NCBI GenBank assembly: GCA_021299385.1
Contig: JAJTGZ010000016.1
Coordinates: 1-44,995 of the forward strand
From: Phycisphaeraceae bacterium
Lineage (GTDB): Bacteria; Planctomycetota; Phycisphaerae; Phycisphaerales; UBA1924
DNA: 44,995 nucleotides
Reading direction: 5' to 3'
Part shown: positions 6,886 through 43,714 of the stretch, piece after piece
Layout of the letters: each line of letters starts with the position of its first letter
Numbering within the stretch: the stretch's first letter is position 1
Made by a program: the position numbers and the translations under genes
Notes under the pieces: model-generated
Told to the model about the DNA's origin: nothing
The model's input: the letters and a program-made list of their open reading frames with translations, nothing else
Databases searched by the model: none

Positions 6886-7968
6886 ATGACTTGGAAGCAG
6901 TTTTGTAGCGTGGTTGCGTTTGCGGCCGTTTCGACCCTGACCACCGCCGCGCGTGCGCAGTGGACCGTCACCAACCTCAACCCGGCGGGATCGACGCAGT
7001 CTTATGGCTACGCCGCGAGTGGTGGGCAGCAGGCGGGGGTTACCACTCTGGGCGGGCTGAGCCGCGCAAGCCTTTGGAGCGGTACATCGGCCACATGGGT
7101 CGATCTCAGCCCCGCGGGATCGGACTATTCCGTTGCCTATGCCATGAGTGGCGGGCAGCAAGCGGGGCAAGCCGGGGTTGGCGGGGTGCTGCGCGCGAGC
7201 CTGTGGAGCGGCACCGCCGCCTCGTGGGTAGATATCCACCCGGCGGTCGCGGACTATTCGGTAGCCCTTGCCATCGGCGGGGGGCAGCAGGCGGGGTATG
7301 CCAACGTGGGCGGGGTGCAACGCGCGAGTCTATGGAGCGGCACGGCAGAGTCGTGGGTTGATCTCAACCCGACTGGATCGACGAATTCCGCTGCATGGGC
7401 TATCAGCGGCGGGCGGCAGGTAGGGAACGTTCAAGTAGGCGGGTTACCCCACGCGAGCCTATGGAGCGGCACGGCTGAGTCGTGGGTCGATCTCAACCCG
7501 GCGGGATCAACGGCTTCTCAAGCCCTTGCCTTCAGTGGGGAGCGGCAGGCGGGTGGTGCCCAAATTAGCGGGGTATACCGCGCGAGCCTGTGGAGCGGGA
7601 CAGCCGAGTCGTGGGTCGATCTCAACCCAACGGTCTCTACGGGGTCATTGATCTATGGTGCCAGCGGCGATCAGCAGGTGGGGTACGCCCAAGTGAGCGG
7701 GGTGACCCGGGCGAGCCTGTGGAGCGGGACGGCCGACTCATGGGTCGATCTCCACGCCTTCTTGCCGGCGGGATTCTCCTACAGCTTTGCTCAGGGCATC
7801 TCCAGTGATGGCGTGAACACGTATATCGCGGGCTATGGCCGCAACACCTTAACCAATCTTGACGAAGCCCTCCTCTGGACGCGGCCCATCCCCACCCCCG
7901 GCGTGGCCGGGTTGTTGGGTTTGGGTGGGGTGGTGGCGTTGCGTCGTCGGCGGGGTGTGGGGCGGTGA
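6886..7968 (+). CDS. Secreted seven-repeat protein with PTPG-type C-terminal sorting tail
   Basis: This 360-residue protein starts with a signal peptide (MTWKQFCSVVAFAAVSTLTT, cleavage near ARAQ) after a GGGGAGG ribosome binding site. Residues ~25-320 are tandem 43-residue units with the pattern ASLWSGTAxSWVDLNPxGS ... SGGQQxG. The first lacks its front half and the last lacks its back half, so strand exchange would give seven units, as in a closed seven-bladed beta propeller. The end, PTPGVAGLLGLGGVVALRRR, is a short PEP-CTERM-like tail common in planctomycetes: a proline motif, a membrane helix, then arginines. It probably anchors the protein for export or surface sorting. The ligand is unknown. 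Its last 136 bases overlap the opposite-strand SWIM frame. Confidence 0.8.
   Translation: MTWKQFCSVVAFAAVSTLTTAARAQWTVTNLNPAGSTQSYGYAASGGQQAGVTTLGGLSRASLWSGTSATWVDLSPAGSDYSVAYAMSGGQQAGQAGVGGVLRASLWSGTAASWVDIHPAVADYSVALAIGGGQQAGYANVGGVQRASLWSGTAESWVDLNPTGSTNSAAWAISGGRQVGNVQVGGLPHASLWSGTAESWVDLNPAGSTASQALAFSGERQAGGAQISGVYRASLWSGTAESWVDLNPTVSTGSLIYGASGDQQVGYAQVSGVTRASLWSGTADSWVDLHAFLPAGFSYSFAQGISSDGVNTYIAGYGRNTLTNLDEALLWTRPIPTPGVAGLLGLGGVVALRRRRGVGR
7065..7760 (+). repeat. 129-bp in-gene tandem repeats
   Basis: Direct repeats of 129 bp (43 codons) begin with a conserved GCGAGCCTGTGGAGCGG-like block at about 7066, 7195, 7324, 7453, 7582 and 7711. They are regular in length and diverged in sequence, which suggests old duplication kept by structural constraint. 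Confidence 0.8.
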
Positions 7969-21740: not shown

Positions 21741-21963
21741 GGGCTGCCGCGGGCTTGCAGCCCGCGAGGCAAGACATTTCACCACAGAGGCACAGAAGCA
21801 CCGAGAAAGGCAGATGCTTGAGGTTTGTCATTCCTGCACACCCCATGCATCTCTCTTCTCTGTGCCTCGGTGTCTCTGTGGTGAAATCTATTTCTGTGCA
21901 GGTTGGAAGCCTGCAGCACCATGAGACAACCCGACCCCTGCCCCTCCCCTCGGGTTAGGGGTT
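21741..21963 (+). repeat. Composite inverted-repeat element, copy 1
   Basis: An element of about 220 bp starting just after the pgk stop. In order: hairpin CGGGCTTGCAGCCCG; arm beginning TTTCACCACAGAGGCACAG; a loop of about 65 bases; the complementary arm ending CTCTGTGGTGAAAT; hairpin GCAGGTTGGAAGCCTGC; and a family 1 GC-rich repeat at 21928-21963. The copy at 27637-27858 has the same parts in the same order, and even its loop is similar. No open frame of interest lies in it. Confidence 0.75.
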
Positions 21964-21981
21964 ATGCATGGGGACGATTGG

Positions 21982-23883: not shown

Positions 23884-25373
<1,490 letters not shown>

Positions 25374-27630: not shown

Positions 27631-27636
27631 GTGTGG

Positions 27637-27858
27637 GTGGTGCGGGCTTGCAGCCCGCGCGGAAAGACAATTCACCACAGAGGCACAGAGGCACCGAGAA
27701 AGACAATGCTTAATGCATGTCTTTCCATCACAACCCCTGCATCTCTCTTCTCTGTGCCTCCGTGCCTCTGTGGTGTAATCTGTTTGCCGTGCAGGCTGGA
27801 AGCCTGTATAACCGAGAGACAACCCCACCCCTGCCCCTCCCCTCGGGGGAGGGGTTCT
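27637..27858 (+). repeat. Composite inverted-repeat element, copy 2
   Basis: Same order of parts as the copy at 21741-21963: hairpin GCGGGCTTGCAGCCCGC, arm AATTCACCACAGAGGCACAG, loop, arm ending GCCTCTGTGGTGTAAT, hairpin CAGGCTGGAAGCCTG, then a complete family 1 repeat at 27821-27857. It starts a few bases after the alkyltransferase stop, in the same orientation to the gene as copy 1 is to pgk. Confidence 0.75.
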
Positions 27859-27897
27859 TATGCGGCATGAACCCACTGCCGGAGTCAGCGGAACCTG

Positions 27898-30800
27898 TCA
27901 AAGTTCGGGCGCGAAGCCGCGGCGCATGGTGTTTTCGCAGATGGCGCGTGGGACGACGAAGTGGTGGAGGTAGTTGTCGCCGCCCGCTTTGCTGCCGACG
28001 CCGGACATTCCGAAGCCGCCGAAGGGTTGGCGGGCGACGAGCGCGCCGGTGATGCCTCGGTTGATATAGAGGTTTCCGACGCGGAAGGCGCGTTTGGCGA
28101 GTTCGAGGTGGGCGGGCTTGCGGGTGTAGACGCCGCCGGTGAGTTTGTAGGGCAGGGCGTTGGCGATGCGGAGGGCGTCGTCGAAGGTGTGCGCGTGGAG
28201 GATGGCCAGGACGGGGCCGAAGATTTCTTCGCGTGCCAGTTCGTGCGTTTGCGGGACGTTCCAGAAGATCGCCGGGGGGACGTACGCACGGCTGGCGGCG
28301 GCGACGTTTGCCGGCAGGGTCAGTTGGTGGTTCGGCAGGCCGTCGGCCTTGGCGCGTTGAATAAACCCGTTGATTTTGGCGGCGGCGTCGGCGTCGATGA
28401 CGGGGCCGACGTCGGTGCCGGGGTGGGCGGGGTCGCCGATGGTCAGGGCGTTGGTCGCCTCGACGAGGCGTTGGCGGACGTGGGTGATGGCTGGGCCGTT
28501 TGGCCCGGCGGGGTCAACGACGATGAGGCGCGAGAGTGCCGAGCACTTCTGGCCTTGGAAGGCGAAGGCCGAGTGCCTGGCGGCGAGCACAGCCTCGTCG
28601 AGGTCGGCGCTGGTGTCGAGGATCATGGCGTTCTTGCCCCCCATCTCGCAGACGACGTGCTTGACGTGCGATGGGTAGATCGGCTCTGCGAGCCGATCCG
28701 GATCGGCTCGGAGAGCCGATCTACCCAGAGTCGGTGCCGAGGCGTTCAAGATGTCTAGGCCGACGTCGCGCGAGCCGGTGAAGGCGATGAGGGTGGTGCG
28801 TGGGTCGCGCACCAATGCCGCGCCGGTGGTTTCGCCGGGGCCGGGGCAGAGTTGGAGGATGCGTGTGGCGTCTGCGCCGATGGCCTGTTGGAGGATGTCG
28901 GCCATCACCTTGGCGATGCCGGGCGTTTGCTCGGCGGGCTTGACGACGACGGTGTTGCCTGTAACGAGCGCGGCGACGGTCATGCCGCAGCAGATGGCCA
29001 GGGGGAAGTTCCAGGGTGAAATCACGACGGCGACGCCGCGCGGCTCGTGGAGCTGCTCGTCGAGCTCGCCGACGAACCGGCCGATGCGTTGTGGGAGGAA
29101 CATCGGCACGGCTAGGCGGGCGTAGTACTCGCAAAAGTCGATCGCCTCGCAGGTGTCGGCGTCGGCCTCGCGCCAGGTTTTGCCGGCTTCTTTGAGCATG
29201 ATCGCGCTGAGTTCATCGCGGCGTGCGCGCATGGCCGAGGCGGCACGGATGAGCACCTGGGCACGCTCTTGGATCGGCCGTTGCCGCCAAGGCTCAAAGG
29301 CTTCGGCGGCGGCGTCGATCATCCGTTTCGCGTCGGCGGGGGTGTTGTCGTTGGCCACGGCGGGCACGCGCGCGTCGGCAACGGCGCGGGCGAAGGCCTC
29401 ACGCGTTGCTTGCTGTGCAAAGTCGCGGAATGGTTCGTTGTAGAACGGGCGGAGCGTCAACCCCGGCACGTTTACGCCTGGCGTGAGCATGTGCCGTTCG
29501 GGGGCGCGGGCGAGGTTGCTGGCCGAGGGCTCGGCGGTTTTGATGGTGTTGGCGTCGCCCGTTGCTGGGCCCGGTGTGGGGAAGGCGTGCTCGTGCGGGC
29601 TGGCGAGCAGTTGCGCGGTGTCGGCGTTGTCAAGGAACCCGGCCTTGAGCCAGCTCTCGTTGCTGGTGTTCTCCAGCAGCCGGCGGACGAGGTAGGCCAT
29701 CCCGGGGATCATCTGCCCGACGGGGACGTACTCGCGGACGCGCAGGCCCATCTCAGCCGCGGCGTGCTTGAGCTGGTCGGCCATGCCGTGGAGCATCTGC
29801 AGTTCGAGGGTGTTGCGTGGCAGCGAGCGCGCCTCGCACCCGGCTAGGGCCGAGGCGATCGAGCGGGCGTTGTGGCTGCCGAGTGCGAGTTTGACGCCAC
29901 CTTGGCCGGGTGCGCGCGGGGTGTGGTCTAGGAGGATGCCGGCCATGCGCTCGAAGCAGGCGTCGGTTTGTTTCTTTGTTGGCCAGACGGGCGTGGGCCA
30001 GCCGCGCTGCTCGGCGTTGATGGTCTCGTAGTCCCAGTAGGCACCCTTGACCAGGCGCACGGTTACCACCCGCCCGGTCTGCTTGGCCCACCGGCAAATC
30101 CGCAGCGCATCGTCAGCCCCGCTCTGGAGGTATGCCTGCATTGCCAGCCCACCCTCAAAGGGCACCTGCGTGCAGCAACGCTCGAAGAGTTCGAGCGTGA
30201 GGTCCTTGAGGGCATACTGCTCCATGTCAAAGTTGATGAAGACCCCTTTGGCGTGCGCGGCGTGCAGGATCGGCACCAGCCGCTTCATCAGGTCCTTGAT
30301 CGAGCCTTCGGTGTCGATCGCGTCGCAGCGGGCGCTGAGCGCGCTGACCTTGACGCTCACGTTGGTGCGTGGCACGGGGCCGAGGTGGTCGCTCTCGAGG
30401 CGCGGGTCGGGCTTCCACCCGGCGACCTGGGCGGGGAGGTTGTTGATCAGGTCGAGGTATTTGGCCTGGTAAGCATCGGCCTCGGCATCGCTAAGGCACG
30501 CCTCGCCGAGGAGGTCGACGCTGAAGGCGATGCCGTCGTCCCAGAGGGCACGCAGGTTGGGCAGTGCGCTGGCCGCGTCGGTGCCGGCGATGAACTTGCC
30601 GGCCATGGATTCGATCTGCTTGCGGATGGTGCCCACGGCCAGGCCCTTGGCAAGTTTGCCTGCTGAGAGTGCCGCAGCGATCGGCGCGGGGACCGTAACG
30701 CCCGGCTGGGTGAGGTAGTCTTGCAGGTGGTCGTAGATATCCTCGGCATCCTTGAGCACGGGGAAACAGTCGACGAAGCGGAACATCTGGACCTTGAACA

Positions 30801-31017
30801 GCGGGTCCTTCATGCTCCAGTTCATCAGCGCGTCGGAGTAGAACGCCGAGGAGAGCAGGCCGCTTTTGTGCCTGCGGGCGAGAGTCAGCAGCTCGGTGCC
30901 CAGTTGCACGACGCGCTCTTGGCTGCCCTGACCCGCAAGCGCGGCGGGCGCGCCCGCAACGGGTGCTGGGGCGAAAGTTGTGCTCGATGCGGATGACTTT
31001 TTGCCTAACCAACCCAT
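27898..31017 (-). CDS. putA: Bifunctional proline dehydrogenase / glutamate-semialdehyde dehydrogenase
   Basis: This 1039-residue enzyme oxidises proline to glutamate in two steps, with FAD then NAD. The PRODH domain (roughly 90-480) has NVSVKVSALSARCDAID, GVFINFDMEQYALKDLT and RLVKGAYWDYETI. The aldehyde dehydrogenase domain (520 to the end) has VISPWNFPLAI, FTGSRDVGLDI, Glu791 in VCEMGGKNAM and catalytic Cys825 in FQGQKCSAL, the usual 34 residues apart. There is no N-terminal ribbon-helix-helix, so it is a short PutA that cannot self-regulate. Residues 765-782 (GRSALRADPDRLAEPIYP) are encoded by an inserted palindromic repeat. AAGGGG lies eight bases before the ATG. Confidence 0.96.
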   Translation of the reverse strand: MGWLGKKSSASSTTFAPAPVAGAPAALAGQGSQERVVQLGTELLTLARRHKSGLLSSAFYSDALMNWSMKDPLFKVQMFRFVDCFPVLKDAEDIYDHLQDYLTQPGVTVPAPIAAALSAGKLAKGLAVGTIRKQIESMAGKFIAGTDAASALPNLRALWDDGIAFSVDLLGEACLSDAEADAYQAKYLDLINNLPAQVAGWKPDPRLESDHLGPVPRTNVSVKVSALSARCDAIDTEGSIKDLMKRLVPILHAAHAKGVFINFDMEQYALKDLTLELFERCCTQVPFEGGLAMQAYLQSGADDALRICRWAKQTGRVVTVRLVKGAYWDYETINAEQRGWPTPVWPTKKQTDACFERMAGILLDHTPRAPGQGGVKLALGSHNARSIASALAGCEARSLPRNTLELQMLHGMADQLKHAAAEMGLRVREYVPVGQMIPGMAYLVRRLLENTSNESWLKAGFLDNADTAQLLASPHEHAFPTPGPATGDANTIKTAEPSASNLARAPERHMLTPGVNVPGLTLRPFYNEPFRDFAQQATREAFARAVADARVPAVANDNTPADAKRMIDAAAEAFEPWRQRPIQERAQVLIRAASAMRARRDELSAIMLKEAGKTWREADADTCEAIDFCEYYARLAVPMFLPQRIGRFVGELDEQLHEPRGVAVVISPWNFPLAICCGMTVAALVTGNTVVVKPAEQTPGIAKVMADILQQAIGADATRILQLCPGPGETTGAALVRDPRTTLIAFTGSRDVGLDILNASAPTLGRSALRADPDRLAEPIYPSHVKHVVCEMGGKNAMILDTSADLDEAVLAARHSAFAFQGQKCSALSRLIVVDPAGPNGPAITHVRQRLVEATNALTIGDPAHPGTDVGPVIDADAAAKINGFIQRAKADGLPNHQLTLPANVAAASRAYVPPAIFWNVPQTHELAREEIFGPVLAILHAHTFDDALRIANALPYKLTGGVYTRKPAHLELAKRAFRVGNLYINRGITGALVARQPFGGFGMSGVGSKAGGDNYLHHFVVPRAICENTMRRGFAPEL
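28673..28726. repeat. 54-bp palindromic element inserted in frame in putA
   Basis: The two 27-base halves, beginning GGGTAGATCGGCTC and ending GAGCCGATCTACCC, are reverse complements at 26 of 27 positions. The length is a multiple of three, and the frame used avoids the TAG in GGTAG. The same core CGGCTCGGAGAGCCG occurs twice at 43202-43249. The encoded 18 residues have no counterpart in the usual ALDH pattern before EMGGKN. Confidence 0.85.
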
Positions 31018-37995: not shown

Positions 37996-38000
37996 GCGCG

Positions 38001-38096
38001 GTGGGGCAGGCATCCCAGCCTGCCTATTCCGGTGGGGCGGGCTTCCCAGCCCGCCTGCCTACTCCGGTGGGGCGGGCTTCCCAGCCCGCCTGCCTC
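38001..38096. repeat. Three tandem GC-rich palindromes (family 2)
   Basis: Three adjacent units of ~30-36 bp, each beginning GTGGGGC and centred on GGCTTCCCAGCC (first unit GGCATCCCAGCC), lie just after nuoH. The arms differ between units in a compensated way (CAGGC/GCCTG against CGGGC/GCCCG), so the hairpin itself seems conserved. Confidence 0.75.
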
Positions 38097-38131
38097 CTTG
38101 CCTAGCATCCACCGGTCTCACACGCCCAAGG

Positions 38132-38395
38132 GTGTCATGTCCACGTCAGGAGAGGGAACTCATCCCCCCCGACGGCCCCCTGGCACCCTACATCTCGGTC
38201 AACCCCGGCCGGATGCACGGCGAGCCATGCTTCAAGGGGACTCGGGTACCCATCCAGACCCTCTTTGACCATCTTGAAATGGACGATGGGCTGGGGGACT
38301 TCTTGGCCGTCTTCCCCAACGTTTCGCGCGAGATGGCCGTGGCGGTCATCGGGCTGGCCTCGCGCGGCCTGCTTGACGGGCTGCGCAACCTGTGA
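38132..38395 (+). CDS. DUF433 protein (antitoxin-like), orphan
   Basis: This 87-residue protein is a DUF433 member: ISVNPGRMHGEPCFKGTRVPIQTLFDHLE followed by FPNVSREMAVAVIGLA is the family pattern, with a winged-helix-like fold. DUF433 genes are often paired with a PIN-like DUF5615 gene as a proposed toxin-antitoxin module. No such partner follows: the next gene is on the opposite strand. The GTG start is weakly supported. The gene is flanked on both sides by the same GC-rich palindrome family (38001-38096 and 38416-38443). Confidence 0.85.
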   Translation: MSCPRQERELIPPDGPLAPYISVNPGRMHGEPCFKGTRVPIQTLFDHLEMDDGLGDFLAVFPNVSREMAVAVIGLASRGLLDGLRNL

Positions 38396-38415
38396 AGCTC
38401 CGGTCTCCTCGAGTA

Positions 38416-38443
38416 TGGTGGGGCAGGCTTCCCAGCCTGCCTG
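38416..38443. repeat. GC-rich palindrome, family 2
   Basis: GGTGGGGCAGGCTTCCCAGC followed by CTGCCTGT is a fourth copy of the units at 38001-38096, on the other side of the DUF433 gene. Confidence 0.7.
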
Positions 38444-40826: not shown

Positions 40827-42581
40827 ATGGTGCAATCGCTCTTTGACAAGCGTCGGTATCTGATCCCGTTCCGGTCGTCGTTGTTGCCGCAGATTTTTTG
40901 CGACACGCTGGTGATCGGCGCGGGTGTTGCTGGGCTTCGTGCGGCCATCACGTCGGCGGGTCATGGTGAGGTGATTTTGCTGTGCAAGGACGAGCCGCAG
41001 ATTTCCAACACGGCGTGGGCGCAGGGTGGGATCGCTGCGGTAACCGACGCGGGGGACACGACGGCCAGCCACATCCAGGACACGCTGGTTGCGGGTGCGG
41101 GTTTGTGCGACCCGGGGATTGTCAAGTTGGTCGTTGAGCAGGGGCCGGCGCGGATCGCCGAGTTGCTTGAGTGGGGGATTCGGCTGGACCGGGACGTGGC
41201 CGGGAAACTGATGCGGGGGCTTGAGGGTGGGCACTCGGTGGCGCGGATTCTGCACGCCGACGGGGACGCGACGGGGCGTGAGTTGTACCGGTGCATGTGG
41301 GACAAGTGCGTGCAGACGCCTGGGATTCGCCGGTTTACGAGGTGTTTTTGCCTGGACCTGCTGACGCCGACGGACCAACCGGGCGCGCCGGTGATGGGCG
41401 CGATCACGCACCACCCCAAGCACGGCTTGCAGGTGATCTGGGCGAAGTCGACGATCCTGGCCTCGGGTGGTGCTGGGTTGGTGTATCGAGAGACGACCAA
41501 CCCGCGCACGGCGACTGGGGACGGGATCGCCGCGGCGTTCCGGGCGGGGGCGGTGCTTGCGGACATGGCGTTTGTGCAGTTCCACCCGACGTGCCTGTAT
41601 CTGGCCGGTGCGCCGCGATCGTTGGTTACTGAGGCGGTGCGTGGCGCGGGTGGGTATCTGGTTGATGAGGGTGGGAACCGATTTATGACCGACGTGCACC
41701 CGCAGGGGGAGCTTGCGCCGCGCGACGTGGTTACAAAGGGGATTGTTGAGCATCTTCATAAGACCGGAGGCTCGCGCGTCTATCTCGATGCCCGGCATAT
41801 CGAGGGGTTTGCCGAGCAATTCCCGGGGATCGCCCAGATGCTGCGCAAGTATGAGATCGACCCGAGCCGGGACAACATCCCGGTGCACCCGGCACAGCAC
41901 TACACGATCGGGGGTGTGCTGGCCGACGCGCAGGGAAGGTCGAGCGTGCCGGGGTTGTATGCGGTCGGTGAGGCGGCCTGCTCGGGGCTGCACGGGGCGA
42001 ATCGGCTGGCGAGCAACAGCCTGCTGGAGGGGCTGGTCTTTGGGCACATCGCGGCGCAGGCGGCCAAGGAGCGGGCAACTTCGGCGAGTGCTGGCGTGCG
42101 TAATGGGAGCGATGGGTCGCACGGCGGCGCGGGGTGGGAGGGTGCGGCACGGCAGGCGCCGGTGCCGATTGTCTCGGATATCCGCCCGAGCGACTCGGGT
42201 GAACTGGACCTAGAAGACGTGGAGCGGTCGCTGCGGAGCGCGATGTGGAAGAACGTGGGGATCGAGCGGACGGGGACGCGGCTGGCCTCGGCCGAGAACA
42301 TGATCGACTTCTGGGGGCGGTACACACTGGATAAGATTTTCGATGACCCGCGCGGGTGGCAGATACAGAACATGCTGCTGGTGGCGCGGCTGATTGCGCA
42401 GTCGGCGATTGCGCGCAGGGAGAGCCGGGGGTGCCACTGGCGCGACGACTTTGCCAGCCCGAGTGCCGAGCTGGTCGCGCACGACTGCTGGAGCCGGCAC
42501 AGCCAGGGGCCGCTGCTGCGGCCGATCAGGCCGCAGGGGCAAGCGGCAGTGGGGGACTCAAAGGTGGCGGTCAAGACATGA
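40827..42581 (+). CDS. nadB: L-aspartate oxidase
   Basis: This 584-residue flavoprotein oxidises aspartate to iminoaspartate, the first step of NAD synthesis. The FAD fold starts TLVIGAGVAGLRAAI, followed by NTAWAQGGIAAV, ATGDGIAAAFRAGA, VQFHPTCLY, LVTEAVRGAGGYLVDEGGNRF and HYTIGGVLADAQGRSSVPGL plus YAVGEAACSGLHGANRLASN. It is distinguished from succinate dehydrogenase by its stand-alone context and NadB-like spacing. TACTAT at 40819 is only two bases before the ATG and five before an in-frame GTG (40830), which could be a leaderless start. Its stop overlaps the next gene as ATGA. No nadA or nadC is adjacent. Confidence 0.94.
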   Translation: MVQSLFDKRRYLIPFRSSLLPQIFCDTLVIGAGVAGLRAAITSAGHGEVILLCKDEPQISNTAWAQGGIAAVTDAGDTTASHIQDTLVAGAGLCDPGIVKLVVEQGPARIAELLEWGIRLDRDVAGKLMRGLEGGHSVARILHADGDATGRELYRCMWDKCVQTPGIRRFTRCFCLDLLTPTDQPGAPVMGAITHHPKHGLQVIWAKSTILASGGAGLVYRETTNPRTATGDGIAAAFRAGAVLADMAFVQFHPTCLYLAGAPRSLVTEAVRGAGGYLVDEGGNRFMTDVHPQGELAPRDVVTKGIVEHLHKTGGSRVYLDARHIEGFAEQFPGIAQMLRKYEIDPSRDNIPVHPAQHYTIGGVLADAQGRSSVPGLYAVGEAACSGLHGANRLASNSLLEGLVFGHIAAQAAKERATSASAGVRNGSDGSHGGAGWEGAARQAPVPIVSDIRPSDSGELDLEDVERSLRSAMWKNVGIERTGTRLASAENMIDFWGRYTLDKIFDDPRGWQIQNMLLVARLIAQSAIARRESRGCHWRDDFASPSAELVAHDCWSRHSQGPLLRPIRPQGQAAVGDSKVAVKT

Positions 42582-43159
42582 AGCACCTGCCCTTGTTGCT
42601 GTTGTTGCTGTTGTTGCTGGCGTTGACGGGGTGTGAGCAGTCGCGTGAGATTTCGTACAAGACGCCGCTGGACCGGGTGCCCGGTGCGTCGCGGAGTGAT
42701 GCGTCGCTGGCCAAGCAGGGGCAGCAGACGCCGGTTGAGGCCGCACGGGCCAAGCGTGAGGAGCTCAGCAAGAAGGACGAGCGTGGGCGGGAGGTGCTGG
42801 TGCTCGAGTCGCCGCACCAGGCGATATTTAATCTTGGCCGGCTGCTCAATGACCCGGCGAGCGACGGGATGCTGCTAGAGCAACTCATCAGCGAGACGAC
42901 CAAGAAGCGGATGGTCGCCGACGGGGGCACGCCGGAGGACGCGGTGGTGTTTTTGCGTGAGAACACGCAGGACATCCAGGACCTGCTTCGGCGGATGCCC
43001 TTTGCCGAGCAGAGCATGGACGTGAGCATGGAGAAGCAGGGGGGCGGGGTGTACTGCTTCCGCTTGCGGAAGGGGCCTGCGCGCGGGCTGCGGTATGACA
43101 GCGTCTGGCTGGCGCTGGAGAATGGGAAGTGGAAGTGGGTGTGGGTGACGGGGCCGTGA
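42578..43159 (+). CDS. Small lipoprotein coupled to nadB
   Basis: This 193-residue protein has a short signal made almost entirely of leucines (MKHLPLLLLLLLLLALTGC), with lipobox LTGC. The rest is polar and helical (KREELSKKDERGREVLVLE, QLISETTKKRMVADGG), ending in a probable beta segment (YDSVWLALENGKWKWVWV). I recognise no family. The ATG overlaps the nadB stop by four bases, so it is translated with nadB, although a membrane lipoprotein has no obvious link to NAD synthesis. The leucine run is encoded by near-perfect nine-base repeats of CTGTTGTTG. Confidence 0.78.
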   Translation: MKHLPLLLLLLLLLALTGCEQSREISYKTPLDRVPGASRSDASLAKQGQQTPVEAARAKREELSKKDERGREVLVLESPHQAIFNLGRLLNDPASDGMLLEQLISETTKKRMVADGGTPEDAVVFLRENTQDIQDLLRRMPFAEQSMDVSMEKQGGGVYCFRLRKGPARGLRYDSVWLALENGKWKWVWVTGP

Positions 43160-43201
43160 GGCGCGGGGGTTGATAGGCAATATATAAGGAAGCAAAGACG
43201 C

Positions 43202-43249
43202 CCGGCTCGGAGAGCCGGGGTAGCCGGGTCGGCTCGGAGAGCCGACCTA
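43202..43249. repeat. Tandem CGGCTCGGAGAGCCG palindromes (family 3)
   Basis: Two hairpins, CCGGCTCGGAGAGCCGG at 43202-43218 and GTCGGCTCGGAGAGCCGAC at 43229-43247, lie after the peroxiredoxin gene. Its last bases CTAC, read on the minus strand, give the GTAG that supplies the TAG stop codon of that gene. The core is the same as in the putA insertion. Confidence 0.7.
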
Positions 43250-43714
43250 CACGGAAGCCTGCTGGATTACGTGTACCGCCCGTGAGGCGTGCTCTCGTGC
43301 GCGTAGTTGGGAGATGAAGACCATTCGGACCACGCCTGCCGGGTCGATGACGTAGGTTGCCCGCCCGGGGAGCAGGCCCAGCAGGGAGCGGGGGACGGTG
43401 AAGAGTTTGCGAAGCGAGCCGTCGGCGTCGCTAATGAGGGGGTAGGGGAGGGCGTGCTTGGTGGCGAAAGCGCGGTGCGAGTCGTCGGAATCACCCGACA
43501 CGCCGAGGATGACGGCGTGCAGTCTTGAGAGCTCGGCAAAGCCATCGCGGAAGGCGCACGACTGTGCCGTGCATCCTGGGGTGAAGTCGCGGGGGTAGAA
43601 GAAGAGCACGACCCATCGGCCGCGGTGGGCCGAGAGTGTGAAGGGGTCGCCGGCGTGGGTGTTGCGTGTGAAGTCTGGGGCGGGGTCGCCGGGGGAGAGT
43701 GGGTGGGGGGGCAT
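43247..43714 (-). CDS. Peroxiredoxin, BCP/PrxQ type
   Basis: This 155-residue thiol peroxidase has DFTPGCTAQSCAFRDG, with peroxidatic Cys48 and resolving Cys53 five residues apart as in two-Cys PrxQ/BCP enzymes. VLFFYPRDFTPG, GVSGDSDDSHRAFA and ATYVIDPAGVVRMVF complete the family pattern. It reduces hydrogen peroxide and alkyl hydroperoxides with thioredoxin-like donors. The start is set by homology. TACCAT ends six bases before the ATG and no Shine-Dalgarno is seen. The stop codon lies within the family 3 palindromic repeat. Confidence 0.93.
   Translation of the reverse strand: MPPHPLSPGDPAPDFTRNTHAGDPFTLSAHRGRWVVLFFYPRDFTPGCTAQSCAFRDGFAELSRLHAVILGVSGDSDDSHRAFATKHALPYPLISDADGSLRKLFTVPRSLLGLLPGRATYVIDPAGVVRMVFISQLRAREHASRAVHVIQQASV

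Follow-up and report, generated by a model that had tools for sequence, protein, structure and literature searches.

The peroxiredoxin gene studied here carries at its 3' end a GTAG-tagged tandem of REP units placed in TAG phase, and the gene ends on the TAG (amber) codon of that tandem, about where proteins of its family usually end; we give this reading a probability of roughly 85%. The window, i.e. the whole stretch of DNA that was analysed (44,995 nucleotides), is contig C7 of genome G000 (2,626,756 bases, or 2.63 Mb, in 111 contigs; 95% complete), which belongs to the order Phycisphaerales. On the minus strand, positions 43247..43714 hold the gene for a BCP/AhpC-TSA peroxiredoxin of 155 amino acids, whose coding frame (43714..43250) matches Pfam PF00578 at 1.2e-36 with a complete domain, and whose best match in the PDB is the BCP homologue 3drn (8e-28). 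Residue 152 of this protein corresponds to position 154 of 156 in PRK09437 and to position 144 of 148 in the PrxQ model. The gene ends ...CAG GCT TCC GTG TAG GTCGGCTCTCCGAGCCGACC..., and its stop codon (43249..43247) lies inside the GTAG tag of the palindrome (43250..43247), just as the first-pass annotation had held in stating that a repeat provides the stop of this gene. A convergent gene on the plus strand (42578..43159), lipoprotein-like by eye, stops 42 nt from the repeat pair.

The whole element occupies positions 43201-43253 and consists of two hairpins in tandem, both on the minus strand. Unit A (43227..43253) starts with the YGGGTAG tag, present here as CGTGTAG and hence with one change relative to the consensus, followed by the stem GGTCGGCTC-TCC-GAGCCGACC; the final three pieces of the peroxiredoxin frame come from it, namely the third base of a Ser codon, GTG for Val, and the stop TAG. 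Unit B (43201..43226) is composed of CGGCTACC and the stem CCCGGCTC-TCC-GAGCCGGG, where other copies have GGGTACCCCGGCTCTCCGAGCCGGGC. The stems of units A and B span 43227-43247 and 43201-43219, respectively; the interval of 43202-43249 initially given for the repeat was nearly correct but one base short on each side, as the element begins at 43201 and conserved 5' bases extend to 43253. Together, the two units fold at -36.6 kcal/mol (z -3.2; two of 200 shuffles were equally stable), and in the folded peroxiredoxin copy the last G of GTAG is base-paired. In a simple scan for terminators, unit B resembles one when read on the minus strand, although its T tail, CGTCTTTGCT, is weak (2 sites in 600 bases versus 0.3 expected), and an Rfam search of the window at gathering thresholds returned 16S rRNA and tRNA only.

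The element is a member of a large repeat family. The sequence CGGCTCTCCGAGCCG occurs in 56 exact copies in the genome (29 forward, 27 reverse) versus a single one for a reversed-letter control, and GTAGNNCGGCTCNNNGAGCCG has 53 matches (28 + 25) versus none; it is this genome-wide count that rules out a chance match, not the count in the window, where the bare 13-nt core with at most two mismatches was found seven times versus 3.6 expected, an unremarkable figure since six of 100 shuffles reached it. The alignment of the 56 copies reads YGGGTAG(G/A)TCGGCTCTCCGAGCCGA(C/T)C with a downstream tail that fades, and the directional consensus, YGGGTAGRTCGGCTCTCCGAGCCGAYC, is accompanied by almost no conservation upstream of the Y; GTAG is intact in 49 of the 56 copies. 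Same-direction A+B tandems are found at four places, namely at the peroxiredoxin (L013), at L034 (with a different spacing), at L038 (whose second unit is a variant) and at L049, and besides these there are opposite-orientation pairs of the family in putA and on contigs C4, C67 and C72. A second palindrome, AACCCCACCCCTGCCCCTCCCC...GGGGAGGGGTT, lies 27-87 nt downstream of 22 of the 56 copies in the same orientation (in four further cases it has the other orientation, and in one it lies upstream), which suggests that what moves may be a composite. Among 61 genomes, GTAGNNCGGCTCNNNGAGCCG was present in seven (53 matches in G000 itself, 18 in G024, 10 in G005, 7 in G036, 6 in G027, 3 in G011 and 1 in G015), and an exact match was absent from the other 54, which include three others of the same genus. 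The window also holds repeats of other kinds: two composite repeats of ~240 bp (21742-21981 and 27635-27874; 84-89% alike for the greater part) flank the 16S rRNA gene (23884-25367), and an array with a 129-bp period (7021-7762) comprises five registers with 67-74% identity to the reference copy.

The genes around all 56 copies were called with a home-made hexamer model, for which the window and 20 stretches served as training data. The TAG of the element is the stop codon of a called gene in five cases: a GNAT acetyltransferase (L001), the peroxiredoxin (L013), a UbiA family protein (L017), an asparaginase (L027) and RadA (L047). The Gly encoded by the GGG of the element is the C-terminal residue in four of these five capped proteins, and their matches run to near the model end (115/116 for GNAT, 240/250 for UbiA, 289/309 for the asparaginase); that of RadA reaches residue 448 of a chain of 452. 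At 16 further copies, a count that leaves out the second units of the tandems at L013 and L027 and includes L045 with its lost TAG, the stop codon of the facing gene starts 7-41 nt before the TAG, and at three more (L032, L034, L035) it starts 61-95 nt before it. A distance below 7 nt is incompatible with the consensus, as no stop codon can arise within YGGG; in G027 (L191), a relative in which Y is A, a stop starts 6 nt before the tag. When the same gene model was applied to 27 copies in six other genomes, two called stops emerged, both of them in G011 and in short frames (201 and 282 nt) called by a model trained on another genome; at six copies the facing gene stops 6-57 nt ahead of the tag, and others are located inside called genes.

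Sense copies whose TAG is silent by phase are present inside putA (L011), carB (L037) and an aldehyde dehydrogenase gene (L003). The putA gene (27898..31017, minus strand; proline dehydrogenase plus aldehyde dehydrogenase) contains an inverted, REPIN-like pair of the same family in frame (28672..28727, minus strand) with its TAG out of phase; GGGTAGATCGG is read there as GGT AGA TCG inside a frame of 1039 amino acids, and GGTAG is indeed harmless in this frame, as originally proposed. Three REP copies lie within the open frame of carB (L037:3619-7371, G000:C67) and an inverted REP pair within that of the aldehyde dehydrogenase gene (L003:1-1440, G000:C4). In the antisense reading, GSESRPT appears in the C-terminal tails of an ABC-transporter ATPase (L042) and of topoisomerase VI B (L040); orientation counts as well as phase. 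As to the further proposal that phase lets one and the same element either extend or cap a protein, phase does decide: the TAG is silent by frame in the putA, carB and aldehyde dehydrogenase copies and caps five genes elsewhere. At gene ends, none of the 56 copies has a called sense gene that stops in the 200 nt following its tag, so lengthening of a called gene by a sense copy is not seen there. Two candidates for frames +1/+2 that run through the element at gene ends, in L041 and L018, have low coding scores (12 and 6, respectively), and neither was called as a gene; L029, with a positive score of 31 in the TAG frame, was dropped, its frame not being called.

Use of the tag as a stop codon is in weak excess over chance. 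Eight genes reach the GTAG edge with no earlier stop, five of them in TAG phase (binomial P ~0.09, calculated by hand), and the five caps compare with 3.5 expected if sense insertions are equally likely up to 60 nt on either side of the stop. Under the same assumption one third of 21 sense insertions would lengthen the gene, versus 0 of 21 found (P ~2e-4, hand calculation), although an in-frame TAG defines the gene end by construction. Selection against lengthening fits the 0/21 count under that assumed equal likelihood of insertion.

We suggest that one REP copy inserted into, or arose by growth at, the extreme 3' end of the peroxiredoxin gene, where its phase puts the TAG of its conserved leading GTAG in frame, so that the gene now ends there. 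Because this TAG falls about at the normal end of the family, the peroxiredoxin is intact save for its last one or two codons. Across the genome, sense copies near or in called genes are found in one of three positions: directly downstream of a stop, as the stop itself with TAG in frame, or inside the gene with TAG silent. We infer that a RAYT transposase carried out the insertion and that the copies are tolerated through selection; the hairpins probably also serve as 3'-end RNA structures, as has been proposed for REPs generally.

A search for relatives of the peroxiredoxin gave a match at 110 loci, some of which share a contig; in 81 of them the alignment extends at least to residue 143, and leaving out the window's own protein gives 80 relatives. 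The C-terminus lies within five residues of residue 155 in 56 of these 80, and none of the 109 relative loci has this element at the stop. The idea that the repeat shaped the end of this peroxiredoxin is not supported, and the orthologue comparison by which the first-pass annotation proposed to refute it, a same end without the repeat, largely came out so. In other words, the repeat gives the stop without visibly moving the end, as relatives and family models end there. The core pattern CGGCTCNNNGAGCCG occurs anywhere in two of the 109 loci, at neither of them at the stop: in L121 it lies ~2 kb from the peroxiredoxin relative, and in the G012 relative it is contained in an inverted pair of palindromes whose stem differs and which begins ~10 nt past the stop codon (L077:1396-1464). 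None of the relatives found (best ~63% identity) is a close empty-site orthologue that would show the insertion event or the former stop codon. That a longer peroxiredoxin was truncated by the repeat is very improbable: the closest relatives (L053 and L054; ~63% identity) do extend 3 and 8 residues further, and a few residues may have been lost, but the shared end of most relatives, the complete Pfam domain and the family models that stop at this place argue against it.

We also regard it as quite improbable that the TAG was there beforehand and that the element inserted beside it, the target supplying the stop. IS200/IS605-type enzymes insert beside short target motifs, and GTAG does lie at the border of the element; yet the tag is found in 49 of 56 copies, most of them not used as stops, so GTAG belongs to the element, and of the 81 peroxiredoxin frames (own included) TAG terminates 14, TGA 34 and TAA 32. 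A real possibility, although we place it somewhat below even odds, is that the elements are kept behind genes as transcription terminators or stabilisers of mRNA 3' ends, the TAG overlap being a by-product of close packing. The convergent genes flanking the repeat, the stability of its hairpins, the terminator-like unit B and the second palindrome downstream of 22 of the 56 copies would suit such a role; the weak T tract, the copies inside genes in both orientations, and the 54 of 61 genomes, three of the same genus included, without an exact match to the pattern do not. We favour a REP copy whose insertion phase makes its own TAG the stop codon.

As regards the transposase, a PF01797 profile search of the genome gave three matches: a free IS200-like gene (L162), and domains held in frame by leuS (L224, 1221 aa) and valS (L163). 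None of the three is flanked by exactly this REP family in the 95% complete genome. With NF047646, the NCBIfam model for REP-associated tyrosine transposases (cut-off 80 bits), the valS insert scores 92.3 bits and the leuS insert 78.5, just under; with Pfam Y1_Tnp (cut-off 23), the leuS insert scores 20 in a protein scan and 23.9, over the cut-off, in the genome search. The palindromes around the leuS insert, GGGTACCC-CCACGC-TCC-GCGTGG, follow the same plan as the REP family at the peroxiredoxin end, a link that is only a resemblance. It is rather unlikely, despite the shared GGGTA-stem-TCC-stem plan, that the capping REPs are mobilised by a RAYT transposase residing in frame inside an aminoacyl-tRNA synthetase gene, here leuS. 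If so, transposase and repeats would both persist through coding-compatible phase, silent inside genes and with TAG at their ends.

The RAYT-type (PF01797) domains found in frame within LeuRS, ValRS and RdgB are more striking than the stop-codon effect and merit a separate study. In leuS (L224:2007-5669, G000:C88) and six other loci (L207, L209, L211, L215, L217, L218) the domain occupies the same loop, and in valS (L163:1-2085, minus strand, G000:C87) and ten others (L205, L208, L210, L216, L219, L220, L221, L223, L246, L271) it sits at one site, in 11 genomes. The distance separating conserved motifs was determined for each synthetase in its 30 top-scoring loci plus the RAYT-bearing loci already known, a sample that leans towards inserts because of this addition. 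The LeuRS gap comprises 219-276 aa with HxH in seven genomes of the family, and 14-35 aa without it in 20, one of the same genus included (five loci unmeasured); the ValRS gap comprises 244-327 aa with HxH in ten genomes and 39-95 aa without it in 17 (seven loci unmeasured), and the eleventh genome with a ValRS insert is G020. Two unlike insert subtypes, in different genera, are found at the ValRS site, which hints at repeated insertion there. The subtype of G005, G043, G044 and G047 (G005 tested) scores 29.2 bits with Y1_Tnp and has no match to NF047646. An RdgB/HAM1-like nucleotide pyrophosphatase gene likewise holds the domain in frame in L206 (G020:C13) and L213 (G017:C14), the G017 insert scoring 85.7 bits with NF047646. 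The seven LeuRS sequences form one group (support 100/99) in a tree built from 16 embedded sequences out of 20 gathered. This tree omits four sequences, those of the other subtype, as well as free RAYTs, a clear one of which was lacking in many of the 20 stretches fetched. Four palindromes of the type GGTGGGGC(A/G)GGC(A/T)TCCCAGCC(T/C)GCC in the window (38000-38442) resemble those beside the valS-embedded domain. In the literature searched, we found no report of aminoacyl-tRNA synthetases with an in-frame transposase domain; PMC3733652 does mention three species whose tRNA synthetases contain REPs.

The family described here is a new REP family with an effect known since 2013, as Di Nocera, De Gregorio and Rocco (PMC3733652) already describe GTAG REPs as elements that 'often provide' a gene with its TAG stop (a passage that names TAG opal) and that also occur inside ORFs. 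According to the same text, the GTAG REP super-family, reported from Planctomycetes among others, shares with the present repeats a palindrome of 20-40 bp with GTAG at one end, many copies, paired units, a location mostly just downstream of genes with some copies inside ORFs, and TAG as a stop; our family likewise consists of a short many-copy palindrome with a GTAG end, downstream and intragenic location and opposite-orientation pairs. It differs in its stem, GTCGGCTC-TCC-GAGCCGAC, which does not appear in the portions of PMC3733652 considered, in its tandem A+B pairs, and in the unlike second palindrome downstream of many copies. Closeness of REPs to stops is also documented for E. coli, where the excerpt of PMC12306157 gives 446 of 4,072 predicted REPs as lying no more than 15 nt from a stop. 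The REP/RAYT system of Nunvar et al. 2010 (PMC2817692) has, in the part considered, the same plan of GTAG plus hairpin, and its Thioalkalivibrio REP, GTAGGTCGGCCTTCAGGCCGAC, is very similar to the family here, whereas our genome has two RAYT-type domains inside leuS and valS with other palindromes beside them. Rickettsia palindromic elements, as outlined in PMC3733652, are likewise palindromes in frame inside genes of known function, but their tag is CGTC instead of GTAG, which sets our family apart from them. The present analysis extends the GTAG REPs by a family from Phycisphaerales, counts how often the tag is used as a stop codon, and provides a hint that sense insertions lengthening a protein are missing at gene ends while capping ones are tolerated.
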